Of a stretch of DNA of 64,000 nt, positions 539-60,758 are shown piece after piece (position 1 is the stretch's first letter; each line of letters begins with the position of its first letter). The DNA is taken from contig JAAXVL010000001.1 in NCBI GenBank assembly GCA_013335535.1, forward strand, positions 885,764 through 949,763, given 5' to 3'. A model generated the notes under the pieces. That model saw nothing but the letters and a program-made list of their open reading frames with translations. It was not told the origin of the DNA and ran no database searches. The position numbers and the translations under genes were made by a program. Source of the stretch: Azonexaceae bacterium. GTDB taxonomy: Bacteria > Pseudomonadota > Gammaproteobacteria > Burkholderiales > Rhodocyclaceae.

Positions 539-1630
539 TCAGGCCAGGATGGCTTGCAATGTTTGCGTCAGCGCCTGGCACTCGGCGTCGGTGCCGACCG
601 TGATGCGCAGGAACTGGTCGATGCGCGGCAATTTGAAGTGGCGGACGATGATGCTCTTGTCGCGCAGCGCCTTGGCCAGCTCGGCGGCATCACGTTGCGG
701 ATGGCGGGCGAAAATGAAATTGGCGCCCGAGGGCAGGACCTCGAAACCGAGACCGCGCAGCTCGGCGGTCAGCGTGTCGCGCGTGGCGATCACGGCGCGG
801 CAGCATTGCTCGAAATACGCCTCGTCTTCCATGGCGGCGACGGCGCCGACGATGGCCAGTCGGTCCAGCGGGTAGGAATTGAAGCTGTTCTTGACGCGCT
901 CGAGCGCTTCGATCAGGGCCGGGTGGCCAATGGCGAAACCGACGCGCAGCCCGGCCAGCGAACGCGATTTGGACAGCGTGTGGATGACCAGCAGGTTGTC
1001 GTAGCGGGCGACGAGCGGAATGGCCGTGTCGCCACCGAAGTCGACGTAGGCTTCATCAACGACGACGACGACATCCGGATTGGCCTTGAGGATCTGCTCG
1101 ATGGCGTCGAGCGCCAGCAGGCGACCGGTCGGCGCATTCGGATTCGGGAAGATGATGCCGCCGATTTCATTTTTGGCCGATTTTTCCGGTTGACCGTGGA
1201 AGTCGTCCGGATTGATGGAAAAGTCCTCGGCCAGCGGCACGGTGCGGTAATCGATGCCATACAGGCCGCAATACACCGGGTAGAAGCTGTAGGTGATGTC
1301 CGGAAACAGGATGGGCGCCTCGTGCTTGAGCAGCGCCATGAAGACGTGGGCCAGCACCTCGTCCGAGCCGTTGCCGACAAAGACCTGTTGCGGGCTGATG
1401 CTGTGGCGTTTGGCCACCGCGGCCTTGAGCAGGTCGGCGTTCGGGTCCGGGTAAAGGCGCAGGCGTGCGGCATCGTTACCAAGCTCCGCCTGAATCGCCG
1501 CCAGCACCTTGGGCGAGGGCGGGAAAGGGTTTTCGTTGGTATTGAGCTTGATCAGGTTGGCGATCTTGGGCTGCTCGCCCGGGACGTAGGGGGTGAGGTC
1601 GCGGACGACCTGGCTCCAGAAGCGACTCAT
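539..1630 (-). CDS. hisC: histidinol-phosphate aminotransferase
   Basis: A 363-aa class I/II PLP aminotransferase that converts imidazole acetol phosphate and glutamate to histidinol phosphate in histidine biosynthesis. Visible motifs are NENPFPPSP (33-40), YPDPN (60-64), NGSDEV (87-92), PNPNAPTG (162-169), DEAYVDF (192-198) and the PLP lysine in TLSKSRS (Lys221). Length is normal. The gene is divergent from hisB, whereas in many betaproteobacteria hisC sits in line upstream of hisB. Residues about 144-156, a loop just before PNPNAPTG, are encoded by a copy of the dispersed 37-bp repeat described at 1165-1201. All catalytic motifs remain, so the enzyme is probably active. The stand-alone CZB gene follows closely. 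Confidence 0.95.
1165..1201 (+). repeat. dispersed repeat, copy 1 (inside hisC)
   Basis: This copy reads ATTTTTGGCC, a short A/T spacer of CGA-type ending in a T-run, then TTCCGGTTGACCGTGGAA. It is antisense to hisC and is translated there as HGQPEKSAK. The TTCC-GGT-TG-ACC-GT-GGAA core is an imperfect inverted repeat. The same core occurs at six other places in this window. Confidence 0.8.
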
Positions 1631-1709
1631 GGGGTTTTCACGGAAGGCGTAAAAGTAGGCTGAAATGGTATCATGGCCCTCCGTTAAAAGCCTTTTGCAG
1701 CCTTAAACC

Positions 1710-2297
1710 ATGCGGCAAGCCGAAATTACTCGCAACACGCTGGAGACGCAGATCACCGTGCGGCTCAATCTCGATGGCACCGGTCAGGGCAAATTTGCCA
1801 CCGGCGTCTCCTTCCTCGACCACATGCTCGACCAGATCGCCCGCCATGGCTTGATCGACATCGACATCGAGGCGGTAGGCGACCTGCACATCGATGCTCA
1901 CCACACTGTCGAGGACATCGGCATCACCTTCGGCCAGGCGCTGGCCAAGGCCTGGGGCGACAAGAAGGGACTGACCCGTTACGGTCACAGCTACGTGCCG
2001 CTCGACGAAGCACTGTCGCGCGTCGTCATCGACCTCTCCGGCCGGCCGGGGCTGGAGCTCAATGTCGAGTTCTCGCGGGCGGTCATCGGCAGTTTCGATG
2101 TCGATCTCGTGTCCGAGTTTTTCCACGGCCTGGTTAACCATGCCGGGGTGACGCTGCACATCGACAACCTGCGTGGCAAGAACGCCCACCATCAGGCTGA
2201 AACCATCTTCAAGGCCTTTGGTCGCGCCCTGCGCATGGCGGTCACGCCCGACCCGCGCATGGCCGGCACCATGCCGTCGACGAAAGGCTCGCTGTGA
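1710..2297 (+). CDS. hisB: imidazoleglycerol-phosphate dehydratase
   Basis: A 195-aa monofunctional IGP dehydratase, without the phosphatase domain fused to it in enteric bacteria. It dehydrates imidazole glycerol phosphate to imidazole acetol phosphate. Metal-binding motifs are DHML (37-40), HHTVED (64-69) and a second set around residues 147-175 (HAGVTLH and NAHHQAE). It starts the hisBHAFIE run. A TATCAT sequence at 1668-1673 could be a -10 element, but no good -35 was found. The stop overlaps the GTG start of hisH, which suggests translational coupling. Confidence 0.96.
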
Positions 2298-2950
2298 GCG
2301 CTGGCGGTAAGGTCGACGGCGCCATCGCCGTCATCGACTATGGCATGGGTAACCTGCGTTCCGTGTCGAAGGCGTTGGAGCACGTGGCCGGCGGCAAGCC
2401 GGTCGTCGTCACGGCCGATCCGGCCGTCGTCGCCGCCGCCGAGCGCGTCGTTTTTCCCGGTCAGGGCGCCATGCCCGACTGCATGGCCGAACTCGACGCG
2501 CGCGGCCTGCGCGCTGCGGTGCTGGCGGCCGCCAAGTCCAAACCTTTCCTCGGCATCTGTGTCGGCGAGCAAATGCTCTTCGAGCACAGCGACGAAGGCA
2601 ATGTGCCGGCGCTCGGCGTCTTTCCCGGCAACGTTAAGCGTTTCCCCGATGAAAAGATGCATCTGCCCACTGGCGAGCGCCTGAAGGTGCCGCATATGGG
2701 CTGGAACGAAGTACGCCAGAAATCGCATGCGCTGTGGAACGGCATCGCCGACGGCTCGCGCTTTTATTTCGTGCACAGCTACTTTGTCGAACCGGCCGAT
2801 CCGGCGCTGGTTACCGGCACTTGCGAGTACGGCGTGCCCTTTACCTGTGCGGTGGGGCGGGATAATATCTTTGCGGTTCAATTTCACCCCGAGAAAAGTG
2901 CTCGCGACGGCCTGCAACTCCTGAAAAACTTCGTTGCCTGGCAACCCTGA
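2294..2950 (+). CDS. hisH: imidazole glycerol phosphate synthase, glutamine amidotransferase subunit
   Basis: A 218-aa class I glutamine amidotransferase. It supplies ammonia to HisF, forming IGP and AICAR from PRFAR. The nucleophile Cys89 is in FLGICVGEQ, and His198 and Glu200 are in FHPEKS, completing the catalytic triad. The oxyanion-strand motif [10 protein letters not shown] is present. It starts with GTG at 2294 inside the hisB stop (GTGA overlap). The first eight residues form a short extension before the conserved [15 protein letters not shown] variant replaces the more common GMQL after the nucleophile. Confidence 0.96.
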
Positions 2951-2984
2951 TTCGCTTCTGTCGAATTTAATCTCCTAGAATCCC

Positions 2985-5548: not shown

Positions 5549-5558
5549 GAGACACATC

Positions 5559-5792: not shown

Positions 5793-5807
5793 GATCGGGC
5801 TGCTGGA

Positions 5808-5862
5808 TTTTAGGATCGCGTGTTTGGAGCATGCTCCCGGATTCTAAAAACTTGCTCCTCAA
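5808..5862 (+). other. stem-loop in the tatA-tatB gap
   Basis: The 89-bp gap holds the perfect 12-bp palindrome GGAGCATGCTCC, flanked by TTTTAGGAT on the left and ATTCTAAAA on the right, which can pair imperfectly. No T-run follows, so it is not a standard terminator. It may shape the mRNA and the ratio of TatA to TatB. tatB has no good Shine-Dalgarno sequence after it. Confidence 0.35.
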
Positions 5863-5881
5863 TCCTCGTTCCTGAAAAACT

Positions 5882-6247
5882 ATGTTCGATATCGGCTTTT
5901 CCGAATTGATGGTGATCGGCATCGTGGCACTGATTGTCATCGGCCCCGAGCGCCTGCCCAAAGTGGCTCGCACGCTGGGGCACCTGCTCGGTCGCGCCCA
6001 GCGTTACGTCAACGATGTGAAGTCGGACATCAGTCGTGAAGTGCAGCTCGACGAATTGAAAAAACTGCAGTCGCAGGTTTCCAATTCGGCGCGCGAGCTC
6101 GAAAGCTCGGTGCGCAGCGAATATGAGTCGGCGCGCAGCGCGATTGAAGCACCGGCCAAGGAGGCTGCTGCCGAGTTGCAATCGACGGCTGCCTCTCTGA
6201 CGGAAACCCTGCCGGTCGCAGACGCCACCCATAAGCCTGCGGCATGA
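5882..6247 (+). CDS. tatB: Sec-independent translocase TatB
   Basis: A 121-aa protein starting MFDIGFSELMVIGIVALIVIG with PERLPKVART after the helix, the standard TatB signature. A long amphipathic and coiled-coil-like helix follows (about 40-100), with an Ala/Glu-rich tail. TatB binds TatC and receives twin-arginine substrates. It overlaps tatC by ATGA. Confidence 0.95.
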   Translation: MFDIGFSELMVIGIVALIVIGPERLPKVARTLGHLLGRAQRYVNDVKSDISREVQLDELKKLQSQVSNSARELESSVRSEYESARSAIEAPAKEAAAELQSTAASLTETLPVADATHKPAA

Positions 6248-7071
6248 GCGATACGCCGGAAGATTCCTTTATTTCGCATCTGATCGAACTGCGCGACCGC
6301 CTGTTGCGCAGCCTGATCGCCATCGCCGTCGTGCTCGGGGTGCTCTGCCTTTATCCCGGACCAGGCGAGATTTACGACATCCTCGCCGCCCCGCTGACGC
6401 GGGCCTTGCCTGAAGGCACCAAGATGGTCGCCATCGGCGTCATCACGCCGTTCATGGTGCCGCTCAAAGTGACGGCGATGGTCGCCTTCATCCTGGCCTT
6501 GCCATTCATTCTTTACCAGGTCTGGGCCTTCGTGGCGCCCGGCTTGTATGCGCACGAAAAGCGCCTGGGTATTCCGCTGATCATTTCCAGCACCTTGCTG
6601 TTTATCGCGGGCATGTCCTTCTGCTATTTCTTCGTCTTCGGGCAGGTGTTCAGCTTCATCAACAGCTTCGCGCCGAAAAGCATTACGCCGGCGCCGGATA
6701 TCGAAGCCTACCTGTCCTTCGTGATGACCATGTTCCTGGCCTTCGGCATCGCCTTCGAGGTGCCGGTGGCGCTCGTCATGCTGGTCAAGCTCGGTGTCGT
6801 GACGGTCGAAAAGCTCAAGGAATGGCGTTCCTACTTCATCGTCGGCGCCTTTGTGGTCGCCGCCGTGGTGACGCCGCCCGATGTGGTTTCCCAGTTGGCG
6901 CTGGCCATTCCGATGTGCCTGCTTTACGAGTTGGGTATCCTGGCCTCGCGGCTTGTGTCGCGGCCGGCGCCGGTGGAGGAGCTCGCCACGGTCAACCCGG
7001 AAAATGCGGCAAAAATGGAAGCCGAAATGGACAAGGCGGAAGAAGAGTTCCGCAACCTGTCCAAGGACTGA
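6244..7071 (+). CDS. tatC: Sec-independent translocase TatC
   Basis: A 275-aa protein with six predicted membrane segments. It is the receptor for twin-arginine signal peptides. The N-terminal HLIELRDRLLRS holds the conserved Glu and the cytoplasmic signal-binding surface; PFILYQVWAFVAPGLYAHEKR is the typical first cytoplasmic loop. The C-terminal extension of about 30 charged residues is longer than in enteric bacteria. It ends directly against the convergent amidotransferase gene, with no spacer and no visible terminator. Confidence 0.96.
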   Translation: MSDTPEDSFISHLIELRDRLLRSLIAIAVVLGVLCLYPGPGEIYDILAAPLTRALPEGTKMVAIGVITPFMVPLKVTAMVAFILALPFILYQVWAFVAPGLYAHEKRLGIPLIISSTLLFIAGMSFCYFFVFGQVFSFINSFAPKSITPAPDIEAYLSFVMTMFLAFGIAFEVPVALVMLVKLGVVTVEKLKEWRSYFIVGAFVVAAVVTPPDVVSQLALAIPMCLLYELGILASRLVSRPAPVEELATVNPENAAKMEAEMDKAEEEFRNLSKD

Positions 7072-7875: not shown

Positions 7876-7878
7876 GGC

Positions 7879-9793: not shown

Positions 9794-9799
9794 GGTGTC

Positions 9800-13804: not shown

Positions 13805-13841
13805 ATTTTAATTTTGGCCTTTTTTTCCGGTTGACCGTGGC
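13805..13841 (+). repeat. dispersed repeat, copy 2 (intergenic, paaK-MATE)
   Basis: AATTTTGGCC, a T-run of seven and TTCCGGTTGACCGTGG. This is a nearly full-length copy between divergent genes. In the forward frame it would read NFGLFFRLTV. Confidence 0.8.
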
Positions 13842-13888
13842 AACGGGCTGCCAGGCCGGCTGGCCGCCTTGTGCGACAATCCCGCCCC

Positions 13889-18205: not shown

Positions 18206-19162
18206 GTGGCCTTGTTTCTTTCGGAAAATGACGTAAAAAACCTGTTGACCGTGGAAATGGCCCTGGAAGCGGTCGAGTCGGCGCATCGTGACCTGGCCAA
18301 CGGCCTGGCCATCGATACCCCGCGGGCGCGTAGCCGTCTGCCGCAGACAGTGCTGCACATTCTGCAGGGTGCGCTTCCGGCGCAAGGAGTGATCGGCTAC
18401 AAGGCCTACACCAGCAACAAGAGCGGCAACCGTTTTCTGGTCCATCTGTTCGACGCGGCGACAGGGCGGCTCAAGGCTGTCATCGAGGCTGATTATCTGG
18501 GCATGATCCGCACGGGCGCAGCAAGTGGCGTCGCCGCCCGCTGGCTGGCGCGGCCCGACGCTGCCGTGGCCGGCGTGTTTGGCGCCGGCTGGCAGGCTGA
18601 AGGCCATGTTCGGGCGATCTGTTCGGCTCTCCCGCTGGAGCGCGTCAAGGTCTACAGCCGCAAGGCTGACAAGCTGCAGGATTTCTGCCGGCGCATGAGC
18701 GAAGCGACGGGTGTCGCCGTCGAGTCGGCCGATAGCGCCGAAGAAACTGTGCGCGGCAGCGACGTCATCGGTACGGTGACGACAGCGGCCCTGCCACTTT
18801 TCGACGCCGCCTGGCTGGAGCCCGGCGCTCACATCAACGCAGCAGGTTCCAATTCGCTGATTCGGCAAGAGTTGTCGGAGGCGGCCATTCGTCGCTGCGA
18901 TCTGGTCACCGTCGATGCGGTACCGACGGCGCTGGCTGAGGCTGGTGACCTGCTCCCCTTGCTGGAGAAGGGGCGCCTGCATTCCCGCCTGTTGGTCGAG
19001 CTCGGTGAGGTGATCATCGGGCGCCATGCCGGTCGGACGTCGGCCGAGCAGATCACGCTGTTTGAGTCGCAGGGAATGGCCATTCAGGATCTTGCCGTGG
19101 CGTTGCGTGTGCTGGCGGCGGCCGAGGCCAGCGGGCTGGGTCGCCAAATGCCCATGGAATGA
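18206..19162 (+). CDS. ornithine cyclodeaminase / mu-crystallin family NAD(P)-dependent enzyme
   Basis: A 318-aa protein of standard length. The N-terminal ENDVKNLLTVEMALEAVE is the family start, MIRTGAASGVAARWLA (about 102-117) is the substrate helix, and GVFGAGWQAEGHVRAI is the dinucleotide-binding turn. Members include ornithine cyclodeaminase, alanine dehydrogenase and ketimine reductase, so the substrate cannot be named. It starts with GTG behind AGGGGAAA and is probably co-transcribed with the TerC gene. Confidence 0.92.
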   Translation: MALFLSENDVKNLLTVEMALEAVESAHRDLANGLAIDTPRARSRLPQTVLHILQGALPAQGVIGYKAYTSNKSGNRFLVHLFDAATGRLKAVIEADYLGMIRTGAASGVAARWLARPDAAVAGVFGAGWQAEGHVRAICSALPLERVKVYSRKADKLQDFCRRMSEATGVAVESADSAEETVRGSDVIGTVTTAALPLFDAAWLEPGAHINAAGSNSLIRQELSEAAIRRCDLVTVDAVPTALAEAGDLLPLLEKGRLHSRLLVELGEVIIGRHAGRTSAEQITLFESQGMAIQDLAVALRVLAAAEASGLGRQMPME

Positions 19163-21807: not shown

Positions 21808-23394
21808 ATGGAAACCTCGGACGACCTGTTTCGCCGCCTGGAACAGCTCAACGATATCGGTGCCTCGCTGTCCAGCGAGCACAACATCAAGCTGCTGCTC
21901 GAAAAGATTGTCCTCGCCGCCAAGCAGATCACCAGGGCTGATGGCGGAACGCTCTATCTGTTGTCGGATGACAAGCGCCACCTGCATTTCGAAATCGTCC
22001 GCACCAGTTCGCTGAACCTGGCCTTTGGCGGCTCCAGCGATCAGCCCACCTCGGGCAAGTTCCCCGACCTGCCGCTCTATCGCCACGATGGCTCAGCCAA
22101 CGACTGCATGGTCGCTGCCTACGCCGCCATAACGGGCAAGACGGTCAATATCGCCGATGCCTATAGCGCCGAGGGATTCGATTTTTCCGGTACGCGCCAG
22201 TTCGACGCGCGAACCGGCTATCGCTCGCAGTCTTTCCTGACTGTGCCGATGAAGGATCACGAGGGCGAGATCATCGGCGTGCTGCAACTGATCAATGCCC
22301 TCAGCCCGACCGACGGGGCGGTCAGCGAATTCTCCCAGGCCGACCAGCGTCTCGCCGAATCGCTTGCCTCGCAAGCCGCCATCGCGCTGAGCAACCGGCA
22401 ACTCGTTGAGCAACTCGAGGCGCTCTTCGAATCCTTCGTCAAGCTCATCAACCTGGCCATCGATGAAAAGTCGCCCTACACCGGCGGCCACTGCCAGCGC
22501 GTGCCGGAACTGACCATGATGCTCGCCGAAGCCGCCGATGCGACCAGCGAAGGTCCGCTCGCCGACTTCAAACTGACCGACAAGGACCGCTACGAACTGC
22601 GCATCGCCGCGCTGCTCCACGACTGTGGCAAGGTCACGACGCCGGTGCACATCGTGGACAAGGCGACCAAGCTGCAAACCATTTACGATCGCATCCATCT
22701 CATCGACACGCGTTTTGAAGTCGTCAAGCGTGACGCCGAGATTCGCAAATGGAAAAGCATCGCCGAAGGCATGGGGCCGGCTGAGGCCGAGCAAATCTGT
22801 TTTGATTTTTGCCAAAAAATTCCGGTTGACCGTGAGATTTTGCATCGGGCCAATATCGGCTGCGAAAAAATGGCCGATGAAGACATTGAGCACGTCCGGC
22901 GAATCACCGCCGAGTATCGCTGGCGCAACGCCGACGGCGAGGATGTCCCGTTCCTCAGCGATGACGAACTCGAAAACCTGACTATCCGCTCCGGCACACT
23001 GACCTGCGCCGAGCGCGACATTATCAACTACCACATCGTCGCCACCATCAAGATGCTCGAACAGCTACCGTGGCCGCGACACCTGAAAAACGTCCCCGAA
23101 TACGCCGGCGGTCACCACGAACGAATGGACGGCAAAGGCTACCCCAAAGGCCTCAAGCGCGAAAACATGAGCTGGCAGGCTCGGATAATGGGCATCGCCG
23201 ACATCTTCGAAGCGCTCACCGCCAAGGATCGGCCGTACAAAGAAGGCATGAAACTCTCGGAAGCGCTGGGCATCCTCGAACGCTTCAGCCTCAATGGCCA
23301 TATCGACCCCGCCCTGCACGAAGTTTTCATCGGCAGCGAGGTGTACCGCCGATACGCCAGCGCTTTCCTGAAAAGCCATCAGGTCGACTGCTGA
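21808..23394 (+). CDS. GAF-HD-GYP cyclic-di-GMP phosphodiesterase
   Basis: A 528-aa protein. The GAF sensor spans about 15-195. The HD-GYP domain follows: HD pair at 271-272 (LLHDCGKVTTP) and HHERMDGKGYP at 436-446. The HD-to-GYP distance is about 165 residues, roughly 100 more than in typical HD-GYP domains. A copy of the dispersed repeat encodes about residues 332-343 (DFCQKIPVDRE) in this extra region. No membrane segment is seen. It follows the MBL-fold gene by 15 bp, linking c-di-GMP with a possible cAMP enzyme. Confidence 0.92.
   Translation: METSDDLFRRLEQLNDIGASLSSEHNIKLLLEKIVLAAKQITRADGGTLYLLSDDKRHLHFEIVRTSSLNLAFGGSSDQPTSGKFPDLPLYRHDGSANDCMVAAYAAITGKTVNIADAYSAEGFDFSGTRQFDARTGYRSQSFLTVPMKDHEGEIIGVLQLINALSPTDGAVSEFSQADQRLAESLASQAAIALSNRQLVEQLEALFESFVKLINLAIDEKSPYTGGHCQRVPELTMMLAEAADATSEGPLADFKLTDKDRYELRIAALLHDCGKVTTPVHIVDKATKLQTIYDRIHLIDTRFEVVKRDAEIRKWKSIAEGMGPAEAEQICFDFCQKIPVDREILHRANIGCEKMADEDIEHVRRITAEYRWRNADGEDVPFLSDDELENLTIRSGTLTCAERDIINYHIVATIKMLEQLPWPRHLKNVPEYAGGHHERMDGKGYPKGLKRENMSWQARIMGIADIFEALTAKDRPYKEGMKLSEALGILERFSLNGHIDPALHEVFIGSEVYRRYASAFLKSHQVDC
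22801..22835 (+). repeat. dispersed repeat, copy 3 (inside HD-GYP gene)
   Basis: TTTGATTTTTGCC, an A-rich spacer instead of the T-run, then TTCCGGTTGACCGTGAG. It is sense to the gene and read as the IPVDR frame, and it is one of the more diverged copies. Confidence 0.7.
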
Positions 23395-27303: not shown

Positions 27304-27320
27304 TCCTGCAATTGTCTTTG

Positions 27321-27355
27321 CTACGGTCAACTGGAAAAAATGACCAAATTCGAAA
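27321..27355 (-). repeat. dispersed repeat, copy 7 (intergenic, diverged)
   Basis: On the minus strand it reads AATTTGGTCA, a T-run and TTCCAGTTGACCGTAG. About five mismatches to the consensus. It lies between the Wzy-like gene and the convergent CYTH/CHAD gene. Confidence 0.65.
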
Positions 27356-27408
27356 CTGCGGGCTGTAGCCAGTAATTCAATTCGCCTGCATGTACGGCTG
27401 CTTCTTAT

Positions 27409-37145: not shown

Positions 37146-37913
37146 ATGCAAATTCAGGACAAGGTATTTTTGGTAACAGGGGCTGGCTCCGGACTGGGAG
37201 CGGCGACCGCATCTGCTTTGGCGGAGGCCGGAGCGAAAGTGGTGTTGGTCGACCTGAATCGTCAGGCTGGCGAAAAGATGGCGGCTGAACTGGGCGCAAA
37301 CACCTGTTTTGTCGAAACGGATGTGGCCAACGAGGCTTCTGCGGTCAACGCGATAAATACGGCTATTTCCAAATTTGGTGCATTGCACGGCCTGGTGAAT
37401 TGCGCCGGTGTCGCGCCGGCCGAGAAGGTGCTTGGCAAGGAAGGCCCGCATCGGCTGGAAAGCTTCGCCAAGGTCATCAACATCAATCTGGTTGGTACGT
37501 TCAACATGATCCGCCTGGCGGCCGATGCGATGATGAAGCACGAGCCGGATGCGGGCGGTGAGCGTGGTGTGATCGTCAATACTGCCTCTGTCGCCGCCTA
37601 CGAAGGTCAGCTCGGCCAGGCAGCCTACGCCGCCTCGAAGGGTGGCATCGTCGCACTGACACTGCCGGTTGCCCGTGAGTTGGCGCGCAGTGGTATCCGC
37701 TGCGTGACCATCGCTCCGGGTATCATGGAAACGCCGATGCTGCTTGGTATGCCGCCCGAAGTGCAGGATTCGCTGAACAAGATGGTGCCGTTCCCGACGC
37801 GCATGGGCAAGCCAGCCGAGTATGCGGCGCTGGTCCGGCACATCGCCGAGAACGCGTATCTGAATGGCGAAGTCATCAGGCTGGATGGTGCCATCCGGAT
37901 GGGCGTCAAATAA
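37146..37913 (+). CDS. short-chain dehydrogenase (3-hydroxyacyl-CoA dehydrogenase type II-like)
   Basis: A 255-aa SDR. The cofactor motif TGAGSGLG is at 11-18, NCAG at about 90, the catalytic Ser in NTASVAA and YAASKGG (Tyr, Lys) around 160. PGIMETPML and the late LDGAIRM are typical of the 2-methyl-3-hydroxybutyryl-CoA dehydrogenase / HSD10 group, so a role in fatty or branched-chain acyl-CoA oxidation is likely. The ATG at 37146 is nine bases after AGGAG; an ATG at 37137 abuts that site and is less likely. A UUCG-loop terminator follows. Confidence 0.9.
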
Positions 37914-37940
37914 ACTATACTTCGGCTCCGTCCTTGACCC

Positions 37941-37964
37941 AAAAGGCACTTCGGTGCCTTTTTA
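37941..37964 (+). terminator. intrinsic terminator between the SDR gene and ccoI
   Basis: AAAAGGCAC-TTCG-GTGCCTTTT: 9-bp stem closed by a UUCG tetraloop and followed by T residues. The ccoI ATG starts at 37969, five bases after the structure. Confidence 0.88.
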
Positions 37965-37968
37965 TTTG

Positions 37969-40407
37969 ATGCCCCCCGCTTCTTGCTATCACTGTGGCCT
38001 GCCGATTCCCGATGATGTCGATCTGTCGGTGAAAATAGGCAGCGAGCCGCGGGCCATGTGCTGTTTCGGCTGCCAGGCGGTGGCGCAGTCAATCGTCGAT
38101 AACGGCCTGGCGGACTATTACCGCAGTCGCGATGCGATGCCCGAGTCGCCGCGCGAGGCCATGCCGGCGATCCTCGATCAGCTGGTAATGTACGACCATG
38201 CCGAGTTCCAGAAAAGCTTCGTCAAGGAGCTTGGGCATAACGAGCGCGAGGCGTCGCTGCTTCTCGAAGGTATCACCTGCTCTGCCTGCATCTGGCTCAA
38301 CGAACAGCATGTCGGCCGCCTGCCGGGGGTGACGGCCGTTAACATTAATTACACGACGCGCCGGGCGCGCGTACGCTGGGACGACTCTCGCATCAAGCTC
38401 TCGGACATCCTCGCCGCCGTCGCCGCCATTGGCTACCGCGCCTACCCGTACGATGCGGCCAAGAACGAGGAGATTTCCCGCAAGGAACGGCGCGACGCCA
38501 TGTGGCGCCTGTGGGTCGCTGGTTTCGGCATGATGCAGGTCATGATGTACGCCTACCCGGTTTACATCGCCGACGGTGATATGGCACCCGACATTGAAAG
38601 CCTGATGCGCTGGGCCAGCATGTTGCTGACCATGCCGGTCATCTTTTATTCCTCGGCGCCGTTTTTCCGCAATGCCTGGCGCGATATCAAATTGCGTCGT
38701 GTCGGCATGGATGTGCCGGTGGCGCTCGGTGTTGGTGCAGCGTTTGTCGCCAGTTGCTGGGCAACGTTTGTGCAGGCCGGAGAGGTCTATTTCGATTCAG
38801 TCACGATGTTCATCTTCTTCCTGCTCGGCGGCCGGTATCTGGAAATGACGGCGCGCCAGAAGGCGGTGAGCGTCACCGAAGCGCTGGCCCGATTGCTGCC
38901 GGCGTTTGCACAAAAAATGCCCAAATTTCCGGTTGACCGTGGCACCGAGCAATGTGTCGTTGCCGATCTGCGTTCCGGTGATTACGTCATGGTCCGGGCC
39001 GGAGATATTGTGCCGGCGGACGGCCGGGTAATCGAGGGCATCAGTTGCGCCAACGAGGCCTTGCTGACGGGGGAAAGCAAGCCCGTGTCGAAGTCGCCTG
39101 GCGAGGCGGTGACCGGTGGGTCGATCAATGCCGAAAGCCCTTTGGTTGTACAGGTCGAGCAAGTTGGTGAGGGAACGCGCTTGTCAGCGATCATCCAGTT
39201 GATGGAGCGGGCTGCAGCGGAGAAGCCGAAAATCGTCGTGCTGGCCGATCGCATCGCTAGCTATTTCGTCGCGGTCCTGCTCGCCGTGGCAATTCTTGTT
39301 GCCGTCGGCTGGTATTTCGTCGATCCATCGAAGGTGTTGTGGATCACCGTTTCGGTGCTGGTCGTAACTTGTCCGTGTGCACTTTCTCTGGCCACGCCGA
39401 TTGCGCTGACGGTGTCGGCCGGTGCCCTGGCCAAGGACGGTTTGCTGGTCACGCGCGGGCACGCCATTGAAACGTTGGCGCGGGCGACACACTTTGTCTT
39501 TGATAAAACAGGTACCTTGACCACGGGGCACATGCACCTGGTGGATGTTTTGCCGACTGCGGGCGAGAGCCGGGATGCCTGTCTTGCCATGGCCGCCGCG
39601 CTTGAGCACGCCTCCGAGCACCCTGTGGCGAGTGCACTCCGTCAGGCCGCAGGGGAAGCCTTGCCCGAAACATCAGCGGTAATTAGTGAGCCCGGGCAGG
39701 GTATCGAGGCGCTCGTGGCCGGCCGCTGTTGCCGCATCGGCCGCCCCGCTTATGCGCTGGCCCTGAGCGCCGCGAAGTTGCCGGATGCTGCCACTCAATG
39801 GCTGGAAAGCGGTGACACTGTAGTGGCTCTGGCTGATGAGACTGGCTGCCTTGCCCTGTTCCGGATCGGCGACGAATTGCGCCAAGAGTCGCTTTCCTTG
39901 ATTTCAGAACTTCGGGCTGCCGGGAAGAAAGTCATTCTTCTGACCGGCGATGCGCCTGCCGTAGCACATCTGGTAGCCGGCAAGCTCGGTATCGCGGACG
40001 TTCGGGCCGGTGTTACGCCTCAGGGCAAGCACGATTGCGTCACCAGTCTCCAGGCTGAAGGCGCCGTCGTCGCCATGCTTGGTGATGGGGTCAATGATGC
40101 GCCGGTGTTGGCTCAGGCGCAGGTATCGATTGCCATGGGCGGGGGGGCGCAACTGGCCAGGACGCAGTCCGATTTCATCCTACTCTCGGAGAATCTGGAC
40201 CATTTGCGTCACGGACTAAGGCGCGCCAGGAAAACGTTGCAAGTGATTCATCAGAATCTCTGGTGGTCCTTCGCGTACAATTTTGTCGCCCTGCCATTGG
40301 CCATCGCTGGTTACGTAACCCCCTGGATTGCCGGTATCGGCATGTCGGCCAGTTCTTTGTTGGTCGTCCTTAACTCACTGCGCATTCAGCGCGTGGAGAC
40401 AGATTGA
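37969..40407 (+). CDS. ccoI: cbb3 oxidase copper-loading P1B-type ATPase CcoI/FixI
   Basis: An 812-aa P-type ATPase that delivers copper for cbb3 oxidase assembly. An N-terminal Cys-rich stretch (CYHCG, CCFGC) precedes a heavy-metal-associated domain with TCSAC (104-107). CPC is at 468-470 in the transport helix, and the phosphorylated Asp512 is in DKTGT; TGDGVND-like GDGVNDAP lies near the end. Residues about 315-325 (MPKFPVDRG), in the actuator-domain segment, are encoded by a copy of the dispersed repeat. No ribosome site is seen, since the start abuts a terminator. It overlaps ccoS by TGATG. Confidence 0.95.
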   Translation: MPPASCYHCGLPIPDDVDLSVKIGSEPRAMCCFGCQAVAQSIVDNGLADYYRSRDAMPESPREAMPAILDQLVMYDHAEFQKSFVKELGHNEREASLLLEGITCSACIWLNEQHVGRLPGVTAVNINYTTRRARVRWDDSRIKLSDILAAVAAIGYRAYPYDAAKNEEISRKERRDAMWRLWVAGFGMMQVMMYAYPVYIADGDMAPDIESLMRWASMLLTMPVIFYSSAPFFRNAWRDIKLRRVGMDVPVALGVGAAFVASCWATFVQAGEVYFDSVTMFIFFLLGGRYLEMTARQKAVSVTEALARLLPAFAQKMPKFPVDRGTEQCVVADLRSGDYVMVRAGDIVPADGRVIEGISCANEALLTGESKPVSKSPGEAVTGGSINAESPLVVQVEQVGEGTRLSAIIQLMERAAAEKPKIVVLADRIASYFVAVLLAVAILVAVGWYFVDPSKVLWITVSVLVVTCPCALSLATPIALTVSAGALAKDGLLVTRGHAIETLARATHFVFDKTGTLTTGHMHLVDVLPTAGESRDACLAMAAALEHASEHPVASALRQAAGEALPETSAVISEPGQGIEALVAGRCCRIGRPAYALALSAAKLPDAATQWLESGDTVVALADETGCLALFRIGDELRQESLSLISELRAAGKKVILLTGDAPAVAHLVAGKLGIADVRAGVTPQGKHDCVTSLQAEGAVVAMLGDGVNDAPVLAQAQVSIAMGGGAQLARTQSDFILLSENLDHLRHGLRRARKTLQVIHQNLWWSFAYNFVALPLAIAGYVTPWIAGIGMSASSLLVVLNSLRIQRVETD
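38912..38943 (+). repeat. dispersed repeat, copy 4 (inside ccoI)
   Basis: The conserved right part AAATTTCCGGTTGACCGTGG is intact; the left part is replaced by AAAAAATGCCC. It is sense to ccoI and read as FPVDRG, the same frame as in the HD-GYP gene. Confidence 0.7.
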
Positions 40408-46407: not shown

Positions 46408-47061
46408 ATGTTGATCCGCGCCTTGTTCATTTCTGCTTTGTTTCATTTCGTGATTTTTCTATCGGCGGATCATCTTGAGCGCGTTGCTCCGCCAGCAGTA
46501 TCAGGGCCTGGAATCGGTGTTCTGGAGATGCGTATTGCTTTGCGCGAGAAGCCGCAAGTGCTTTCACCAGCGGTTACTAAGCAGGGAGTATCGGATGTGG
46601 TGCCTGAATCAGCTGTTCAAAAATCCGATTTTGTCCCAGAGAAGAAAACAAAGGATTTGAATATTGGCCGTTTTTTCCGGTCGACCGTGGAAGTTGCCAA
46701 CTTGAATCATACGGATGCCAGTCGATCCCCTGATATCAAGTCTCCTGAGCTCCCGTCCGCCTCAGTAGAGGAGCTCGGGCAATATCGCTTGAATGTGGCG
46801 CGGAGTGCCCGACAGTTCAAGGTTTATCCATCGCTAGCACGGGAAAATGGATGGGAGGGGGTGGCCCATGTTACCGTTGCTCTGCCATTTGACTTGGGAC
46901 GCCCTGTCGTCTCGCTGGGTCGGTCGTCCGGCCACGCGGTTCTGGATCGTCAAGCGCTTGATATGGTTGAGCAGGCGGTAAGTCTGGCGCTCATGCCGGA
47001 GGGCTTGCGCGGCAAAGGGTTGAGCATTTCGGTCCCGGTGGAGTACCGCCTTGCCGATTGA
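46408..47061 (+). CDS. TonB-like energy transducer
   Basis: A 217-aa protein. An N-terminal helix (about 4-20) acts as signal anchor, followed by a low-complexity linker and a TonB_C-type domain (about 120-217; GVAHVTVALPFDLGRPVVSLGRSSGHAVLDRQAL). The linker lacks the long Pro-rich repeats of TonB. Residues about 83-95 (NIGRFFRSTVE) are encoded by a copy of the dispersed repeat, in a frame different from those in ccoI and the HD-GYP gene. No ExbB/ExbD genes adjoin it. A weak AGGGAGCGG precedes the start. Confidence 0.8.
   Translation: MLIRALFISALFHFVIFLSADHLERVAPPAVSGPGIGVLEMRIALREKPQVLSPAVTKQGVSDVVPESAVQKSDFVPEKKTKDLNIGRFFRSTVEVANLNHTDASRSPDIKSPELPSASVEELGQYRLNVARSARQFKVYPSLARENGWEGVAHVTVALPFDLGRPVVSLGRSSGHAVLDRQALDMVEQAVSLALMPEGLRGKGLSISVPVEYRLAD
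46655..46692 (+). repeat. dispersed repeat, copy 5 (inside TonB-like gene)
   Basis: AATATTGGCCG, six T and TTCCGGTCGACCGTGGAA. It is sense and read as NIGRFFRSTVE. One change in the core (TTGACC to TCGACC) makes the centre a perfect GGTCGACC palindrome. Confidence 0.8.
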
Positions 47062-53255: not shown

Positions 53256-55952
53256 ATGTTGAATTTACGCAATTACAAGATTGGCACTCGCCTGATCTTG
53301 ACCACGGTTGGTGCATTGGCCCTGATGATCGCGTTTGTTGCGATTGCCTGGCTCAGCCTGAATTTGATTAGCGACAAGGTTGATCACATCGCTAACAACA
53401 ATATCAAGAAGACTGAGTTGGCTGTCGACATGCGTACACGGAATCTGTTGATCGGCAGACACGTGCGTACTGCGTTGATCTATGAGGAATCCGAGAAGCA
53501 ACTGGGTGAGGAGAAGAAGGTCAGTGCTGATCTTCAAGCCTATATGACGTCAGAAAATCAGCTTCGGGAAACACTGGTCACGGCGCGCGGAAAGGAAATA
53601 CACGAGCGCGTCGTGCTGGCCAGAAAAGCGGCAGAGCAATCTATTTCCCGGATGTTCGTACTGATAAAGGCTGGGAACCGTCCCGAGCTTGAAGATCAAT
53701 TTTTCAATAGTTTTCGCCCAAAAATGCAGATTTGGTTCGATGCAGTGGACGAAATATTGCAGCTCCAGAGAGAGAATAATCTACGCGATTTAGCGGAAAT
53801 TGAATCAGTTAAGTCACGTGTCCAGACCTCCATGTTGTTGATGATTGGCTTGGCTCTGATCGTCATGATTCCGGCCGGACTGTGGGTGACGCGCCAGATT
53901 ACCGGCCCCTTGGGGGCGGCTGTCGGCGTGGCGGATGCCGTTGCTGCGGGCAATCTCGATAACAGCATTGATGTGAGCGGTAACGACGAGCCTGCGCAGT
54001 TATTGAATGCGCTCAGTCGCATGCAGGCAGATATCAAGGCACGTACGGAAGGTGAGCGTCGAGTGGCCAATGAGGCGCTTCGCATCAAGGTGGCTTTGGA
54101 TGTGACATCAAACAGCGTGATGGTTGCTGACCCGGACGGCGTGATTGTTTATTGCAATGCTGCTGTGCTGGAAATGATGCAAGTGGCCGAGGCCGATATT
54201 CGCAAGGACCTTCCGTCATTCAGGGCCAATTCGATTCTGGGCTCCAATTTCGATATCTACCACAAGAGCACGGCCCATCAGCGCAACCTGCTGGCAGGCC
54301 TGAAAGGCATGCATCGCACACAAATCGCGGTTGGCGGTCGTACGTTCAGATTAGTGGCCAGCCCGATTGTCAATGAACGTAACGAGCGTCTCGGAACCGT
54401 TGTTGAATGGACGGATCGTACCGCTGAGGTCGCTGTTGAGGAGGAAGTTGGCAGCATTATTGCCGCCGCGGCTTCCGGTGATTTCTCGCGCCGCATTGAT
54501 GCCAGCGAGATGAGTGGTTTCTTCAGACACATTTCTACTGGGATCAATGATCTTCTCGAGGTGAATAGTCAGGCGCTGGCTGATGTAGGGGCAATGCTGA
54601 CGCGACTGTCACAAGGGGATCTGACCCGCAAGATCGATACCGAATACCAAGGTGTGCTTGGCCGCTTGAAGGATGATGCCAATGTCACCGTCGATAACCT
54701 TCAGGAGATCATTTTCTCGATTAAAAGTGCGACCGATGCGATTAACACGGCTGCGCAGGAAATTGCCAGCGGTAACCAGGATTTGTCGGGGCGAACCGAG
54801 CAGCAGGCATCGAGTCTCGAAGAAACTGCGTCGAGCATGGAGCAGTTGACCAGCACTGTCAAACAGAACGCCGACAACGCGCGTCAGGCCAATGAACTGG
54901 CGAGCAATGCTCAGCGGGTCGCTGAAAAAGGCGGCCAAGTTGTCGGGCAGGTTGTTGAAACCATGGGGGCAATCCACCAGGCTTCGAACAGAATTTCTGA
55001 CATCATCAGCGTAATTGACGGTATCGCGTTCCAGACAAATATTTTGGCTCTCAATGCGGCGGTTGAAGCGGCTCGTGCGGGTGAACAGGGCCGTGGTTTT
55101 GCCGTGGTGGCAACTGAAGTTCGAAATCTCGCCCAACGCAGTGCGGCTGCGGCCAAGGAAATAAAGTCCCTGATTTCCGACTCTGTCGATAAGGTACAAA
55201 CTGGCGGGCGTTTGGTCGATCAGGCAGGTCAAACGATGGGTGAGGTCGTGGCCAGCATCCAACGTGTCGCCAAGATCATGTCTGATATTTCCTATGCAAG
55301 CCGCGAGCAAACTGCTGGTATAGAGCAGGTTGGCCTGGCTGTTAGCCAGATGGACGAAATGACGCAGCAGAATGCCGCGCTGGTCGAACAGGCAGCAGCG
55401 GCAGCCGAAAGCCTCGAAGAGCAGGCGCGCAATTTAGCGGAGTCGGTAGCGGTATTTCGTCTTTCGGGTGGCTTGATCGTCCAAGGGCAGTCTGAACTTG
55501 CCGGCCTGGACTTTGATGGAGCGATAGCTGCGCATGGAAAATGGAAGCAACGCCTGCTCGATTATGTGGCCGGTGGTGATGAGCAACTGGACCCCGCTAT
55601 CGTAGGACGTGACGACCAGTGCGCCTTGGGTTGCTGGATCCACGGCGATGGCCGTGCGCTGCGCGGCAATTCCAAATATACCGAGCTCAAGGGGGAACAC
55701 GCGGGATTCCATCGCTGCGCGGCGGATGTCATACGAACCCAATTGGCTGGCAATAGCGACGGCGCGCGGGCCCAAATATCCGGCGAATTTACCAATCGAT
55801 CTGCACGCGTCATCGGATTGCTGGAAAGCATGCGAGGAGGAGGGAAAAATCCGCCTCCGAAGCAATTGACCGCAGCAGCTCCCAGGACTGTTTCCCCGGT
55901 CAAAATGCCGGCGCTCGTTGCGCCGGATGATGACGAGTGGGAAGAGTTTTAA
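53256..55952 (+). CDS. methyl-accepting chemotaxis protein with PAS and CZB domains
   Basis: An 898-aa receptor. Two membrane helices (about 14-36 and 190-212) enclose a four-helix periplasmic sensor; HAMP follows. A PAS-like domain (about 270-390; [17 protein letters not shown]...), a second HAMP and the signalling domain (about 500-740, hairpin tip [27 protein letters not shown]) come next. The C-terminus carries a CZB zinc-binding domain ([31 protein letters not shown]) and ends DEWEEF. The CZB domain suggests zinc or hypochlorite sensing. The last residues resemble the NWETF tether for CheR/CheB. Start is at 53256 with AGGAG upstream. Confidence 0.93.
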
Positions 55953-55974
55953 GACAACAGGGTCATAGAAAAAT

Positions 55975-58900
55975 ATGCGAAATAATCAGCCTGTGACGAA
56001 TGTGGAGATTGAGGTGGATGACTACCACCTCATCGCTTCCAAGACTGATCTCAAGGGGCAGATTACCTATGTCAATCAAGCTTTTATTGACATCAGCGGG
56101 TTTTCTGAGTCGGAGCTGATCGGTCAGCCTCACAATATTTTGCGCCATCCGGATATGCCATCTGAGGCATTTGCCGATTTGTGGCAGGACCTCAAGCATG
56201 GTCGTCCGTGGACCGGCATGGTCAAGAACCGGTGCAAGAACGGAGACTATTACTGGGTTTTAGCCAATGTGACGCCGCTGCGTGAGAACGGTACGGTCGT
56301 CGGCTATATGTCTGTGCGTCGGAAGGCGAGCCGAGAGCAGATTTCTGCAGCTGAAATGGCGTATTCGGAAATCCGCGAAAAACGTGCAGGCGGCAAGATC
56401 ATCTCTCATGGCAACGTGGTTAGAGGCGGTGGGCTCGGGGTTCTGCGGCGCTGGATGTCTGATGCGTCATCCTCCCAAAAAATTGTACTGGGAATGTTGC
56501 TGGGGTTCGGGATCATTCTGGGGGGGGCGACCAACTTGCTTGGGGGCCACCTGGCAACGCTACTGGATGTTCAGGGGCGCGAAAGTCTGAGAAATGATGT
56601 GGGTCTGATCCGTGTCATGGTTGAAACGAACCTGACGGCTCTGCGCAAAGAAGCCATTCAGTTGAACCGTGGCTTTGCGATGTCCTTTCAGGACGATATT
56701 GTTCTTGAGGGGGGCGAAGAGCAAGGAGTCCTTCGTACGTCCAGAGGCGATGTCCTGAACGGAAAGTTCGAAATAGTCGATCGTTTTACTGAGAAAACAG
56801 GTGCGGTTGCCACAATTTTTAGTCGCAAGGGTGATGACTTCGTCCGGGTTTCGACGTCAGTCAAAAAAGAGAATGGCGAACGTGCCGTTGGTACCAACCT
56901 GGCCAAGGAACATCCGGCTCTGGCTGAGCTATTGGCAGGGAAGCCCTATGTCGGACAGGCAACTCTCTTCGGAAAGGCTTTCTACACCAGTTACACGCCC
57001 ATTTTTGCAAAGAGCGGCAAAATCATAGGTGCCACATTTATCGGGCTTGATATCTCGACAGAGCTGGAAGCCCTTAAAAAGCAGATTCGCTCATTGAAGG
57101 TGGGGGAGACGGGTTATTACTTTGTGCTTGATGCAAGCAAAGGTAAGGACTTCGGTAATCTTCTCGTGCATCCAGCCAAGGAGGGAACCAACGTTCTTGG
57201 TGCCAAGGATGCCGGTGGTCGCGAGTTCATTCGCGAAATGCTGGAACGAGGTAACGGGGAGATTAGTTATCCATGGATCAACACCGAATTGGGTGACACT
57301 GCAACACGGGAAAAGATTGTGGTGTTTGACACACTGCCTGATGCCAAGTGGCTGATTGCCGGTGGAACCTATCTTGACGAGTTTCACGCCCTTTCAAGTC
57401 AGACTACCCGCTATGTCGTGATCGGCGGACTGATCCTGGCGTTGCTGCTTGCCGCATTTCTCTACCTGCTTATTTCGAAGCTGATTGTCCGGCCGCTGCA
57501 ACAAAAGGTTCTGCCCGTTTTTAACGACCTAGCAGAAGGTCGATACGATACGCGACTGGATGTCGGGGCAAATGATGAGGTTGGCCAGGTCCTTCAGGGG
57601 CTCCAGTCGATGCAAATGCAGCAAGGATTCAATGTTGCGGAGGCGCAGCGTATTGCCAACGACAATCTACGCATTCGCATTGCGCTGGATTGCGTTTCAG
57701 CCAATTTGCGGATTGCCGATGACGAAGGGAAGGTGATCTACGCTAACAAGGGGCTGCTGACAACCTTGCGCCAGATTGAGCCTGGTCTGCGTGAACAGCA
57801 GCCGAATTTCAGCGTTGACGGGTTCATCGGCAGCAATATTGGCGTGTTTTATCAGGATCCGGCTGCTGCACTCAAAAGCTTGCGTGAGTTGCAGGGGACT
57901 CGCCAGACAGAACTCGATATTGGCCGGCGGATTTATAACATCATTACTAACCCGATCATCAATGAGCGTGGCCAGCGCCTCGGTACCGTGGGCGAATGGG
58001 TTGATCGTACGGCCGAATTGAATGCCCAGCGATCAGTGGCTGATCTCGTATCGCGTGCGTCAGCCGGGGATCTCGGGGCGCGCCTCGATACCTCTTCGCT
58101 GGAAGGCTTTTACAAGGAGCTTGGCACAGGCATCAATAGCTTGGTTGAGACCAGCGGCGCGGCGATTGGCGAGATTGCCGATCTTCTGTCTAGAGTGGCG
58201 GATGGCGATCTCACCCAGACGCTGACTAGCTCGTATCAGGGGACCTTTGGTCGCTTGCGCGATGATGCGAACCAGACTGTCACGCAGTTGCGTAATCTGG
58301 TCGGCGAAATTCAGTTGTCTGCGCAAATGATCAATACGGCTGCCAAGGAAATTGCATCGGGCAACCAGGATCTGTCCGGGCGGACTGAAGAGCAGGCGAG
58401 TAGCCTCGAAGAGACGGCGTCGAGCATGGAGCAACTGACCAGCACGGTGAGGCAGAACGCCGACAACGCACGTCAGGCAAACGAACTGGCTGGTACCGCC
58501 CAGCGGGTTGCCGATAAGGGCGGCGAGGTGGTGGGGCAAGTCGTCAACACCATGAGTGCAATCCATCAGTCGAGCAGCAAGATCGCTGACATCATTGGGG
58601 TGATCGATGGTATCGCCTTCCAGACCAATATTCTTGCCCTCAACGCGGCCGTCGAGGCTGCACGGGCGGGAGAGCAGGGGCGCGGATTTGCCGTGGTGGC
58701 CACCGAGGTGCGAAATTTGGCTCAGCGTAGTGCTGCCGCAGCAAAGGAAATCAAGGGTTTGATCTCAGACTCGGTCGACAAGGTCGAAACAGGCAACAAA
58801 TTGGTTGATCAGGCAGGCCGAACGATGGAAGAGGTCGTGTCGAGTATCAAGCGTGTGGCCAAGATCATGGGTGATATTTCCGATGCCAGTACCGAGCAGA

Positions 58901-59199
58901 GCGCGGGTATCGAGCAGGTTAGTTTGGCGGTAAGCCAGATGGATGAGGTGACGCAACAGAATGCGGCCCTTGTCGAGCAGGCTGCGGCAGCGGCCGAGAG
59001 CCTGGAAGAGCAGGCGCATCAACTGACGCAGACTGTTGCGGTATTCCGGATTGGCGACAGCAACATGACTTCGCGCCTTGCCTCGCCACCGCCTCGAATC
59101 GAGCGCAAAGCCGAATCGGCAATGAAAACCGAGCCGCCTCGAGGTCCAAAGGCACAATTGCAACATGTCAGTCTTGATGATGAGTGGGAAGAGTTCTAG
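55975..59199 (+). CDS. methyl-accepting chemotaxis protein with PAS, Cache and second PAS domains
   Basis: A 1074-aa receptor. An N-terminal cytoplasmic Aer-like PAS (about 15-120, [13 protein letters not shown]) is followed by a membrane helix (about 165-190), a large periplasmic Cache-type sensor (about 195-475), a second helix (about 480-502), HAMP, a second PAS (about 560-680), HAMP-like repeats and the signalling domain (about 770-1040, hairpin tip as in the preceding receptor). It ends DDEWEEF. Two senses, redox or energy through PAS and a ligand through Cache, may be combined. It is close in sequence to the preceding receptor in the signalling part, suggesting duplication or gene conversion. 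Confidence 0.92.
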
Positions 59200-59201
59200 C
59201 C

Positions 59202-60104
59202 ATGGCTGATATTCGAAATCCGGCTCAGCCTGTATCTACTATCCTGTCATCGTTGTCAGCCAGTTTGCCCGCTCGAGATAGTACGGCGAGGGAGTTTACG
59301 TTTTCGACGACTGATTTTGAGCGCGTTCGCAAACTGATCTACCAGCATGCGGGGATTTCTTTGTCGCCGGTCAAGCAGGATATGGTCTATTCGCGTCTGG
59401 CGAGACGTCTGCGCGCAACGGGAATGCGTTCTTTTGCCGAGTATCTTGACGGGTTGGAACGAAATGGCGGCGATGAGTGGGAGCGCTTCGTCAATTCGCT
59501 GACGACAAATCTGACCTCGTTTTTTCGCGAGCCGCACCACTTCCCGATCTTTGCCGATCACATTCGCAAGATTGGCACGAAACGCCCTATCCGGGTCTGG
59601 TGCTCGGCGGCATCGACGGGGGAGGAACCCTATTCGATCGCGATGACCGTGGCTGAAACCTTTGGCTCCAATGTCTCGCACATCTCGATCGTCGCTTCGG
59701 ATCTCGATACCAATGTGCTGGCGACTGCTGCCAAAGGCGTTTATCCCGTCGAACGGGTTGAAAAATTGTCACCGGAGCGTCTGCGTAAATTCTTTCTGCG
59801 CGGCACTGGCAGCCAGGATGGTTTCGTTTCGGTTCGTCCCGAGTTGAAGCAGATGGTCAGTTTTCAGCGGACCAACCTGCTGGACACGAGCTATGCCGTC
59901 AAGGGGCCGCTCGATGTCATATTTTGCCGAAATGTGATGATCTATTTCGACAAGCCAACTCAGTACAAGATTCTGTCGCGCTTTGCTCCGATGATGCAGC
60001 CAGACGGGCTGATGTTTGCTGGCCACTCGGAAAGCTTTTTGCACGCGGCCGATCTTTTCAAGTCCCAGGGCAAGACAGTTTATGCCCCGGTGCAGGCTCG
60101 ATAG
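59202..60104 (+). CDS. cheR: chemoreceptor glutamate methyltransferase CheR
   Basis: A 300-aa SAM-dependent methyltransferase. N-terminal helical domain (about 30-90), then the catalytic part with WCSAASTGEEPYSIAM (SAM binding), ASDLDTNVL and IFCRNVMIYFD, and a beta subdomain that would bind a receptor tail. The ATG at 59202 follows the receptor stop by two bases; an in-frame GTG at 59184 is inside the receptor gene. It should act on the WEEF-tailed receptors next to it. Confidence 0.96.
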   Translation: MADIRNPAQPVSTILSSLSASLPARDSTAREFTFSTTDFERVRKLIYQHAGISLSPVKQDMVYSRLARRLRATGMRSFAEYLDGLERNGGDEWERFVNSLTTNLTSFFREPHHFPIFADHIRKIGTKRPIRVWCSAASTGEEPYSIAMTVAETFGSNVSHISIVASDLDTNVLATAAKGVYPVERVEKLSPERLRKFFLRGTGSQDGFVSVRPELKQMVSFQRTNLLDTSYAVKGPLDVIFCRNVMIYFDKPTQYKILSRFAPMMQPDGLMFAGHSESFLHAADLFKSQGKTVYAPVQAR

Positions 60105-60116
60105 GGAAGGCGCCGG

Positions 60117-60722
60117 GTGCAACACTCCTACGATGAACAGCTAGCGACAAATCGATACTTCGACCGGAAGTTCGGTCTTGAAGCAGCCAAAATATTGCCG
60201 GGCGAATACTTCGTTTCCAACAAGGAAGCGCTACTGGTGACCGTTCTCGGTTCATGTGTTGCCGCCTGTATTCGTGATGCCGACTCCGGAATTGGCGGGA
60301 TGAATCATTTCATGTTGCCGGATGATGGTGGTCGCAGCCCGCTTGCGATGTCGACCCGCTATGGTACCTACGCCATGGAAGTGCTGATTAATCATCTGCT
60401 CAAGCTGGGCGCACGACGCAATCGTCTTGAGGCCAAGGTATTTGGCGGGGGGGCTGTCATGGCGAGCCTGGCGAGTAGTAACGTCGGCGCCAAAAATGCG
60501 GAATTCGTCCTTGATTTCCTGAAGACCGAAAAGGTTCCTGTCGTCGCCAAGGACTTGCTGGATTCATATCCCCGGAAAGTCTATTATTTTCCGCATTCAG
60601 GACGCGTTCTGGTCAAGAAATTGCACCGAGTGCACAACGAAACCTTGTTCAGCCGCGAAAACGATTACAAGGTACGCCTGACCGGTTCTACCATCGAAGG
60701 CGATGTCGAGTTGTTCGTTTGA
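60117..60722 (+). CDS. cheD: chemoreceptor glutamine deamidase CheD
   Basis: A 201-aa cysteine deamidase. LGSCVAACIRD holds the catalytic Cys (about residue 44) and GGMNHFMLP the His (about 60-63); YGTYAMEVLINHLLKLGA is the third conserved block. It starts with GTG behind AGGGAAGG. It converts receptor Gln to Glu, and can act with CheB. A dispersed-repeat copy follows it. Confidence 0.95.
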   Translation: MQHSYDEQLATNRYFDRKFGLEAAKILPGEYFVSNKEALLVTVLGSCVAACIRDADSGIGGMNHFMLPDDGGRSPLAMSTRYGTYAMEVLINHLLKLGARRNRLEAKVFGGGAVMASLASSNVGAKNAEFVLDFLKTEKVPVVAKDLLDSYPRKVYYFPHSGRVLVKKLHRVHNETLFSRENDYKVRLTGSTIEGDVELFV

Positions 60723-60758
60723 CACGGTCAACCGGAAAAAAGCGCCAATTTTGAAATT
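60723..60758 (-). repeat. dispersed repeat, copy 6 (intergenic, cheD-cheB)
   Basis: On the minus strand it reads AAATTTCAAAATTGGCGC, a T-run and TTCCGGTTGACCGTGT. It fills most of the 53 bp between the two genes, starting one base after the cheD stop, so the cheB ribosome site region contains no AGGAGG-like sequence. Confidence 0.78.

Follow-up and report, generated by a model that had tools for sequence, protein, structure and literature searches.

To our knowledge, DNA self-recognition uptake tags have so far been described solely in two bacterial families, neither of them the family treated here. In the Pasteurellaceae, the uptake signal sequence (USS) of Haemophilus influenzae joins a short core to two A/T-rich regions, which, according to the accessible parts of two reports, are thought to ease kinking at the pore (PMC12616744, PMC7811141). 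In the Neisseriaceae, the DNA uptake sequence (DUS) occurs as dialects around a fixed core, and some relatives are without the tag, as given in the accessible part of the source (PMC3630211). Here, we describe a dispersed 39-bp repeat noticed in a 64,000-nucleotide stretch (the window) from an Azonexaceae bacterium of the Rhodocyclaceae (assembly GCA_013335535.1, contig JAAXVL010000001.1, positions 885,764 to 949,763). The genome of the window is called G000, and other G numbers denote the genomes compared with it. Our comparisons suggest that the repeat is a DNA uptake sequence, that is, a self tag for preferential uptake of conspecific DNA, a reading to which we assign a probability of roughly 0.8. 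Since this dispersed, apparently self-propagating, dialect-forming tag with its fixed core and one-sided A/T tracts belongs to neither known family, we file it as a new one. With nearly the same confidence, we take it to be a third, independently evolved uptake-sequence family, found in free-living Rhodocyclaceae and comprising about five dialects, a convergent Haemophilus-like core with one-sided A/T tracts, and repeated loss that has left eroding relics within one genus.

The repeat shares features with both described systems. As the available portions of the reports present it, the Pasteurellaceae USS likewise combines a short core with two discontinuous, one-sided A/T-rich regions (~30 bp there), occurs in many copies and forms dialects with a fixed inner core (PMC12616744, PMC7811141). 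Unlike the USS, for which the same portions give the inner core GCGG(T), the present repeat has the dyad-centred core GTYGACCG (CCGGTTGACCGTGG in full in G000), and its bearers belong to a different bacterial class. With the Neisseriaceae DUS, the repeat shares high copy number, fixed-core dialects and tag-free relatives (PMC3630211, from the part available), and ComP_DUS-family pilins are found in both. In contrast, the DUS is described in that part as contiguous, at most ~13 nt long and built on the inner core CTG, whereas the unit described here spans 39 bp, carries A/T tracts and has a consensus without CTG.

The repeat is abundant across the genome. In the whole 4.25-Mb G000 genome, a search for the 16-bp core allowing ≤2 mismatches returned 689 matches (341 forward and 348 reverse), or ~1 per 6.2 kb, compared to 5 for the reversed-pattern control. 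A reading of the window made from its letters only (the sequence-only reading) had extrapolated from ~1 copy per 9 kb to several hundred per genome, which was right in kind. It had also named counts no higher than chance, or absence from relatives, as findings that would speak against the repeat; neither was obtained, and the same consensus recurred in hundreds of copies in two sister species (497 in G011 and 248 in G002). Within the window itself, the core TTCCGGTTGACCGTGG with ≤3 mismatches occurred 11 times, compared to 0.57 on average and at most 2 in 100 dinucleotide shuffles.

To the 82 sites of one 400-kb contig segment (C1:1-400000), on which the spacing and placement statistics below are also based, we fitted a 39-column matrix carrying 53 bits, with the window left out. 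At a threshold of ≥18 bits, this matrix found 10 copies in the window and none that high in 20 Markov-shuffled windows. Alignment of 90 sites from 464 kb (the same segment plus the window) showed a full unit of 39 bp with sharp edges and the approximate consensus ATTT(C/G)(A/G)(A/T)TTTTGGCC N (A/T)TTTTT CCGGTTGACCGTGG (A/C)AA, in which the A/T tracts come first and the core follows. The repeat reported by the sequence-only reading is real, although its unit was drawn too narrowly and the exact string AATTTTGGCC is present in just one of the seven copies listed there. Within the tracts, runs of A and runs of T stand in for each other, and copies are separated by scattered substitutions. In G000 and G335, roughly one turn of the helix separates the two tracts. 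The core is a near-dyad in G000, and in most sister species the dyad centre is GTCGAC.

Among the sampled members of the family, the motif was restricted to a single genus (Azonexus/Dechloromonas, Rhodocyclaceae). The family searches covered samples of 297 and 249 genomes from a larger group. In the first, the canonical pattern was enriched solely in the genus of the window, with ≤5 matches in the 285 genomes of other genera. The short core GTYGACCGYR reached up to 2440 matches within the genus (control, 227), and in the second sample it had ≤322 in 241 genomes of other genera. A long exact version of the motif was found in 13 stretches, titled Dechloromonas, Azonexus, Rhodocyclaceae, Betaproteobacteria and, once, Gammaproteobacteria bacterium. 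The motif was undescribed among the matches listed in searches of the literature on uptake sequences, including that on Rhodocyclaceae, Rhodocyclales, Dechloromonas and Azonexus (preprints not covered; matches to the core letters judged by title).

Unbiased 10-mer counts and aligned sites both showed that GTYGACCG is constant across species and that the flanking ends are species specific. Specifically, the core reads CCGGTTGACCGTGG in G000, GTCGACCGCAG in G373, GTCGACCGCAA in G007 and G009 (the latter from 20 sites), GTCGACCGTGA in G010 and G206 (the latter from 46 sites) and GTCGACCGCG in G031 (from 38 sites), while G335 is divided about equally between GACCGCAG and GACCGTGG. Perfect palindromes occur as single copies in G007 and G010; in G373, the consensus itself is palindromic across GCGGTCGACCGC. 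No core excess was seen in the stretches examined of G171, G004 and G006. In eight species profiled, 68-87% of sites had a far A/T tract, located ~17 bases upstream of GTYGACCG, compared to 9-35% at the downstream mirror position, and columns -19 to -17 were 69-100% A/T in all eight; the far tract is therefore one-sided. A near tract, at about -9 to -4, stands out clearly in G000 (54% of sites) and G335 (65%).

Three further observations concern individual dialects. The dialects ending in GACCGCA (G007, G373 and part of G335) have the complement TGCGGT, which holds GCGGT, the Pasteurellaceae inner core as the available text gives it; those of G000 and G010 do not, and the overlap may be coincidence. 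Some copies in G010 are embedded in long inverted repeats that are perfect and bordered on either side by A/T runs; these copies may double as bidirectional terminators. Finally, in positions 1-80000 of G031 contig C1, AGAACCAGAA and shifted forms of it occur 31-33 times in 80 kb, which is probably a tandem repeat.

Within the genus, the counts fell into two groups. A pattern capturing the architecture (A/T tract, then G/C pair, then core), built in part from genomes that were afterwards counted with it, gave 280-1211 matches in 40 of 76 genus genomes, hereafter the bearers, and 6-116 in the other 36, with a control of ≤15. Twenty of the 36 motif-poor genomes were above control (Poisson < 1e-4) and look like eroding relics. 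A single-gene tree covering 13 genus members plus two outgroups, with weak support on some branches, nested the pair G004 and G006 (116 and 58 matches) and G005 (34 matches) among bearers, a position consistent with losses of the motif.

Ortholog alignments were mostly gapless, and we therefore consider that copies arise and erode in situ, mostly through point changes. For the G000-centred alignments, which had to extend 40 bases past the motif (a rule by which the copies at 13805 and 46655 dropped out), gapless means no gap ≤12 bases from the motif. Of these alignments, 27 of 34 were gapless, 13 of 18 in a first set and 14 of 16 in a second. Ten of the first set's 13 re-use the site at window position 22800 and the other three are those of 38907; in the second set, site 133911, which supplies 5 of the 16 alignments (each of them gapless), has 3 mismatches, lacks A/T tracts and probably matches by chance, and leaving it out gives an overall count of 22 of 29. 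At 22800, all 12 sister orthologs aligned without gaps (67.8-81.7% identity over 536-551 bases); on inspection by eye, the motif is present in G011, half-formed in G002 and absent from the remaining ones. At least one gapless alignment was obtained at 6 of 10 real G000 sites (22800 and 38907 in the window; 122363, 126940, 136203 and 141163 on C1), and the gapped alignments had between 1 and 29 gap characters, in no case amounting to a clean unit of 39 bp. In the reverse test, with sister sites as query, 28 of 34 alignments, several of which can come from one site, were gapless, and G000 was without the motif in 13 of those. The sequence-only reading had proposed looking for empty sites in orthologous loci; no clean one, differing by one unit, was seen in the 34 G000-centred and 34 reverse alignments.

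In the mechanism that we infer from these patterns, a surface receptor associated with type IV pili would bind the tag, and conspecific fragments would be drawn in preferentially by natural transformation. Because tagged fragments would enter and recombine more often, the tag would accumulate at many sites by point substitution (molecular drive), in genes and between them, on both strands and fairly evenly. GTYGACCG would be the invariant recognition part and the adjoining bases the dialect. The one-sided A/T tracts would probably ease bending or kinking of the duplex at the pore through which it enters, in line with what has been proposed for the uptake signal of Haemophilus.

Genes for such a process are widespread among the 76 genus genomes: ComEC-family genes occur in 71, ComEA above the cut-off (TIGR00426) in 67, a ComP_DUS-family pilin in 70 and a GspH/FimT-family pilin in 69. 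G000 has a minor-pilin cluster in which a ComP_DUS-family and a GspH-family pilin are followed by further frames, which we take to be PilV, PilW, PilX and PilY1, beside ispH, lspA and ileS. Across the genus, the matches to the two pilin families show three spacings (adjacent, ~2.3 kb and ~6-8 kb apart), which suggests swapped minor-pilin operons.

Several results weigh against an uptake sequence. Among the literature matches listed, we found no uptake experiment in this genus, and the dyad-centred core would also suit a dimeric DNA-binding protein. Four of the 10 real G000 sites (1164, 6983, 27318 and 60719) were gapped in every alignment. A few genomes of other genera exceed their own controls at low counts (G274, 125 vs 13; G068, 248 vs 75), an excess that may stem from composition or from a related signal, and the near A/T tract is weak (13-41%) in the six other species profiled, being no stronger than the downstream mirror in G007 and G009. 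ComEA above the cut-off is missing in 5 of the 40 bearers (G335, G014, G362, G002 and G374), two of which, G335 and G014, are 100% complete; the TIGR00426 matches of G335, G014 and G002 lie in frames of ~780-830 amino acids (aa), and in the five ComEA may have been lost, may have diverged or, where the genome is incomplete, may be absent from the assembly. No receptor candidate separates bearers from other genomes: columns of 30 GspH/FimT-family and 30 ComP_DUS-family proteins did so no better than shuffled labels, and presence of PF16732 and PF12019 across the genus genomes gave no signal. The comEC gene of G000 is split by a 33.7-kb element (contig C33, ~109,620-143,300) of lower G+C content with a serine recombinase leading, and the sequenced strain may therefore not be transformable at present. 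Nor does damage to comEC go with absence of the motif: the gene was broken in 5 of the 39 bearers and in 8 of the 32 remaining genomes (Fisher p 0.23), a comparison that leaves out the 5 genomes without a comEC match and uses a manually read list in which some breaks may be contig ends.

Other comEC genes in the genus are interrupted or shortened as well. That of G375 is split at the same domain position as in G000, the frames of G004, G028, G035, G259 and G384 are shortened (499-571 aa) and the match begins late within them, and in G034 the match is spread over two frames. comEC thus seems to be hit repeatedly by insertion or decay; in Piscirickettsia, it is reportedly interrupted by transposable elements, according to one abstract.

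As to placement, 40 of the 82 sites in 400 kb lie within genes and the other 42 inside or bordering the non-coding 9%, as delimited by gene calls from a simple codon-usage script, so that the motif is ~tenfold denser outside genes. Intergenic density was highest in convergent gaps (1.82 sites per kb; 10 sites), intermediate in tandem gaps (1.22; 26 sites) and lowest in divergent gaps (0.56; 5 sites). Spacing was more even than random (coefficient of variation, 0.71 vs 0.98), and none of 2000 simulations was as even. Copies of the Neisseriaceae DUS are often paired as terminators; here, unlike there, only one pair among the 82 sites was <100 bp apart. Sites showed no bias toward the G-rich strand in twenty 20-kb samples, four of them adjacent, of the complete G335 chromosome (36 vs 32), nor in G000 C1:1-400000 summed over 40-kb bins (42 vs 40), and a replication-strand signal was rejected on these counts. 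The 33.7-kb element within comEC, the one element examined, contains 0 copies compared to ~5.5 expected from the genome density, while within the 60 kb read two copies lie on its left and three on its right. In a viral collection, five contigs each had one exact 17-mer.

These data bear on four other explanations. The three candidates of the sequence-only reading were a non-autonomous mobile element of very small size, a site bound by a nucleoid or replication protein and an uptake-like sequence, of which the evidence favors the last. An element of the MITE or REP type would account for a short, dispersed repeat with a dyad core, and in one G007 alignment gaps of 25 and 4 bases take out much of the motif. 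The mostly gapless alignments in both directions, the want of any gap equal to the unit or of a clean empty site, and the scattered substitutions that distinguish copies contradict this origin, which we rejected as scarcely credible. A chromosome-wide binding site for a protein that organizes the chromosome (nucleoid, segregation or division control), lost in some species along with the protein, would explain the dyad centre, the single palindromic copies in G007 and G010, and the hundreds of evenly spaced sites. We nevertheless consider it unlikely: it fits less well with the lack of bias toward the G-rich strand, the bimodal counts within the genus, the location of about half of the copies within genes and their absence from the resident comEC element. 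Moreover, we know of no resemblance between a 39-bp, 53-bit, one-sided signal with fast dialect change and the matS, KOPS, Chi, SlmA or Noc sites.

A highly iterated palindrome kept by a bias of mutation, repair or methylation has a precedent in HIP1 of cyanobacteria, an octamer without an A/T tail or dialect system. Like HIP1, the present motif is dispersed, very frequent and built around a palindromic centre, seen as GTCGAC in most sisters and extending across the G373 consensus. Unlike HIP1, it is long and one-sided, and mutational bias would hardly yield such a 39-bp signal with interchangeable A and T runs, or lower its density in divergent gaps, so we regard this explanation as distinctly improbable. 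An operator bound by a global regulator, or a terminator of transcription, might be suspected from the greater density outside genes, with its maximum in convergent gaps. Placement led us to reject both as very improbable, given the low density in divergent gaps, the near absence of close pairs and the presence of about half of the sites inside genes in both orientations.

If the repeat is indeed an uptake sequence, a tag in an environmental genus would mean that self-selective transformation arose on at least three occasions. Because the genus includes bearers, eroding lineages and tag-free species, the origin, maintenance and rate of decay of such a tag would be testable within it. Members of the genus are denitrifiers and phosphate accumulators of wastewater, and a tag could ease genetic work on these bacteria.

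In the window, the repeat was present at all seven places listed by the sequence-only reading, on the strands given there. Four of these copies, all on the plus strand of the window, lie within genes: 1164-1202 (64.6 bits) in an aminotransferase gene (539-1630, minus strand), 22800-22838 (45.3 bits), the site with 12 gapless sister orthologs, in a GAF-HD domain gene (21808-23394, plus), 38907-38945 (19.5 bits; gapless in 3 of 3 sister alignments) in a heavy-metal P-type ATPase gene (37864-40407, plus) and 46655-46693 (56.7 bits) in a gene with a TonB C-terminal domain (46408-47061, plus). Two are intergenic, at 13805-13843 (plus, 64.1 bits) and 27318-27356 (minus, 49.8 bits); at the latter, the aligned G002 DNA carries its own copy, which is not in register. 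The seventh, 60719-60757 (minus, 54.9 bits), is at the end of a plus-strand gene (60117-60722). That list was incomplete, as the matrix adds three copies: one of 44.0 bits at 6983-7021 (minus) within tatC (6244-7071, plus), and two weak ones, 18219-18257 (plus, 22.2 bits), with A/T tracts and a GTTGACCGTGG core, and 37336-37374 (minus, 22.4 bits), with the sister-dialect end GACCGCAG.

A search of the window against Rfam at the gathering score reported tRNA only, with no structured RNA at the repeat. Separately, positions 54740-55039 and 58329-58628 form a 300-base direct repeat of 76% identity located in two neighboring long reading frames, which are probably paralogues.

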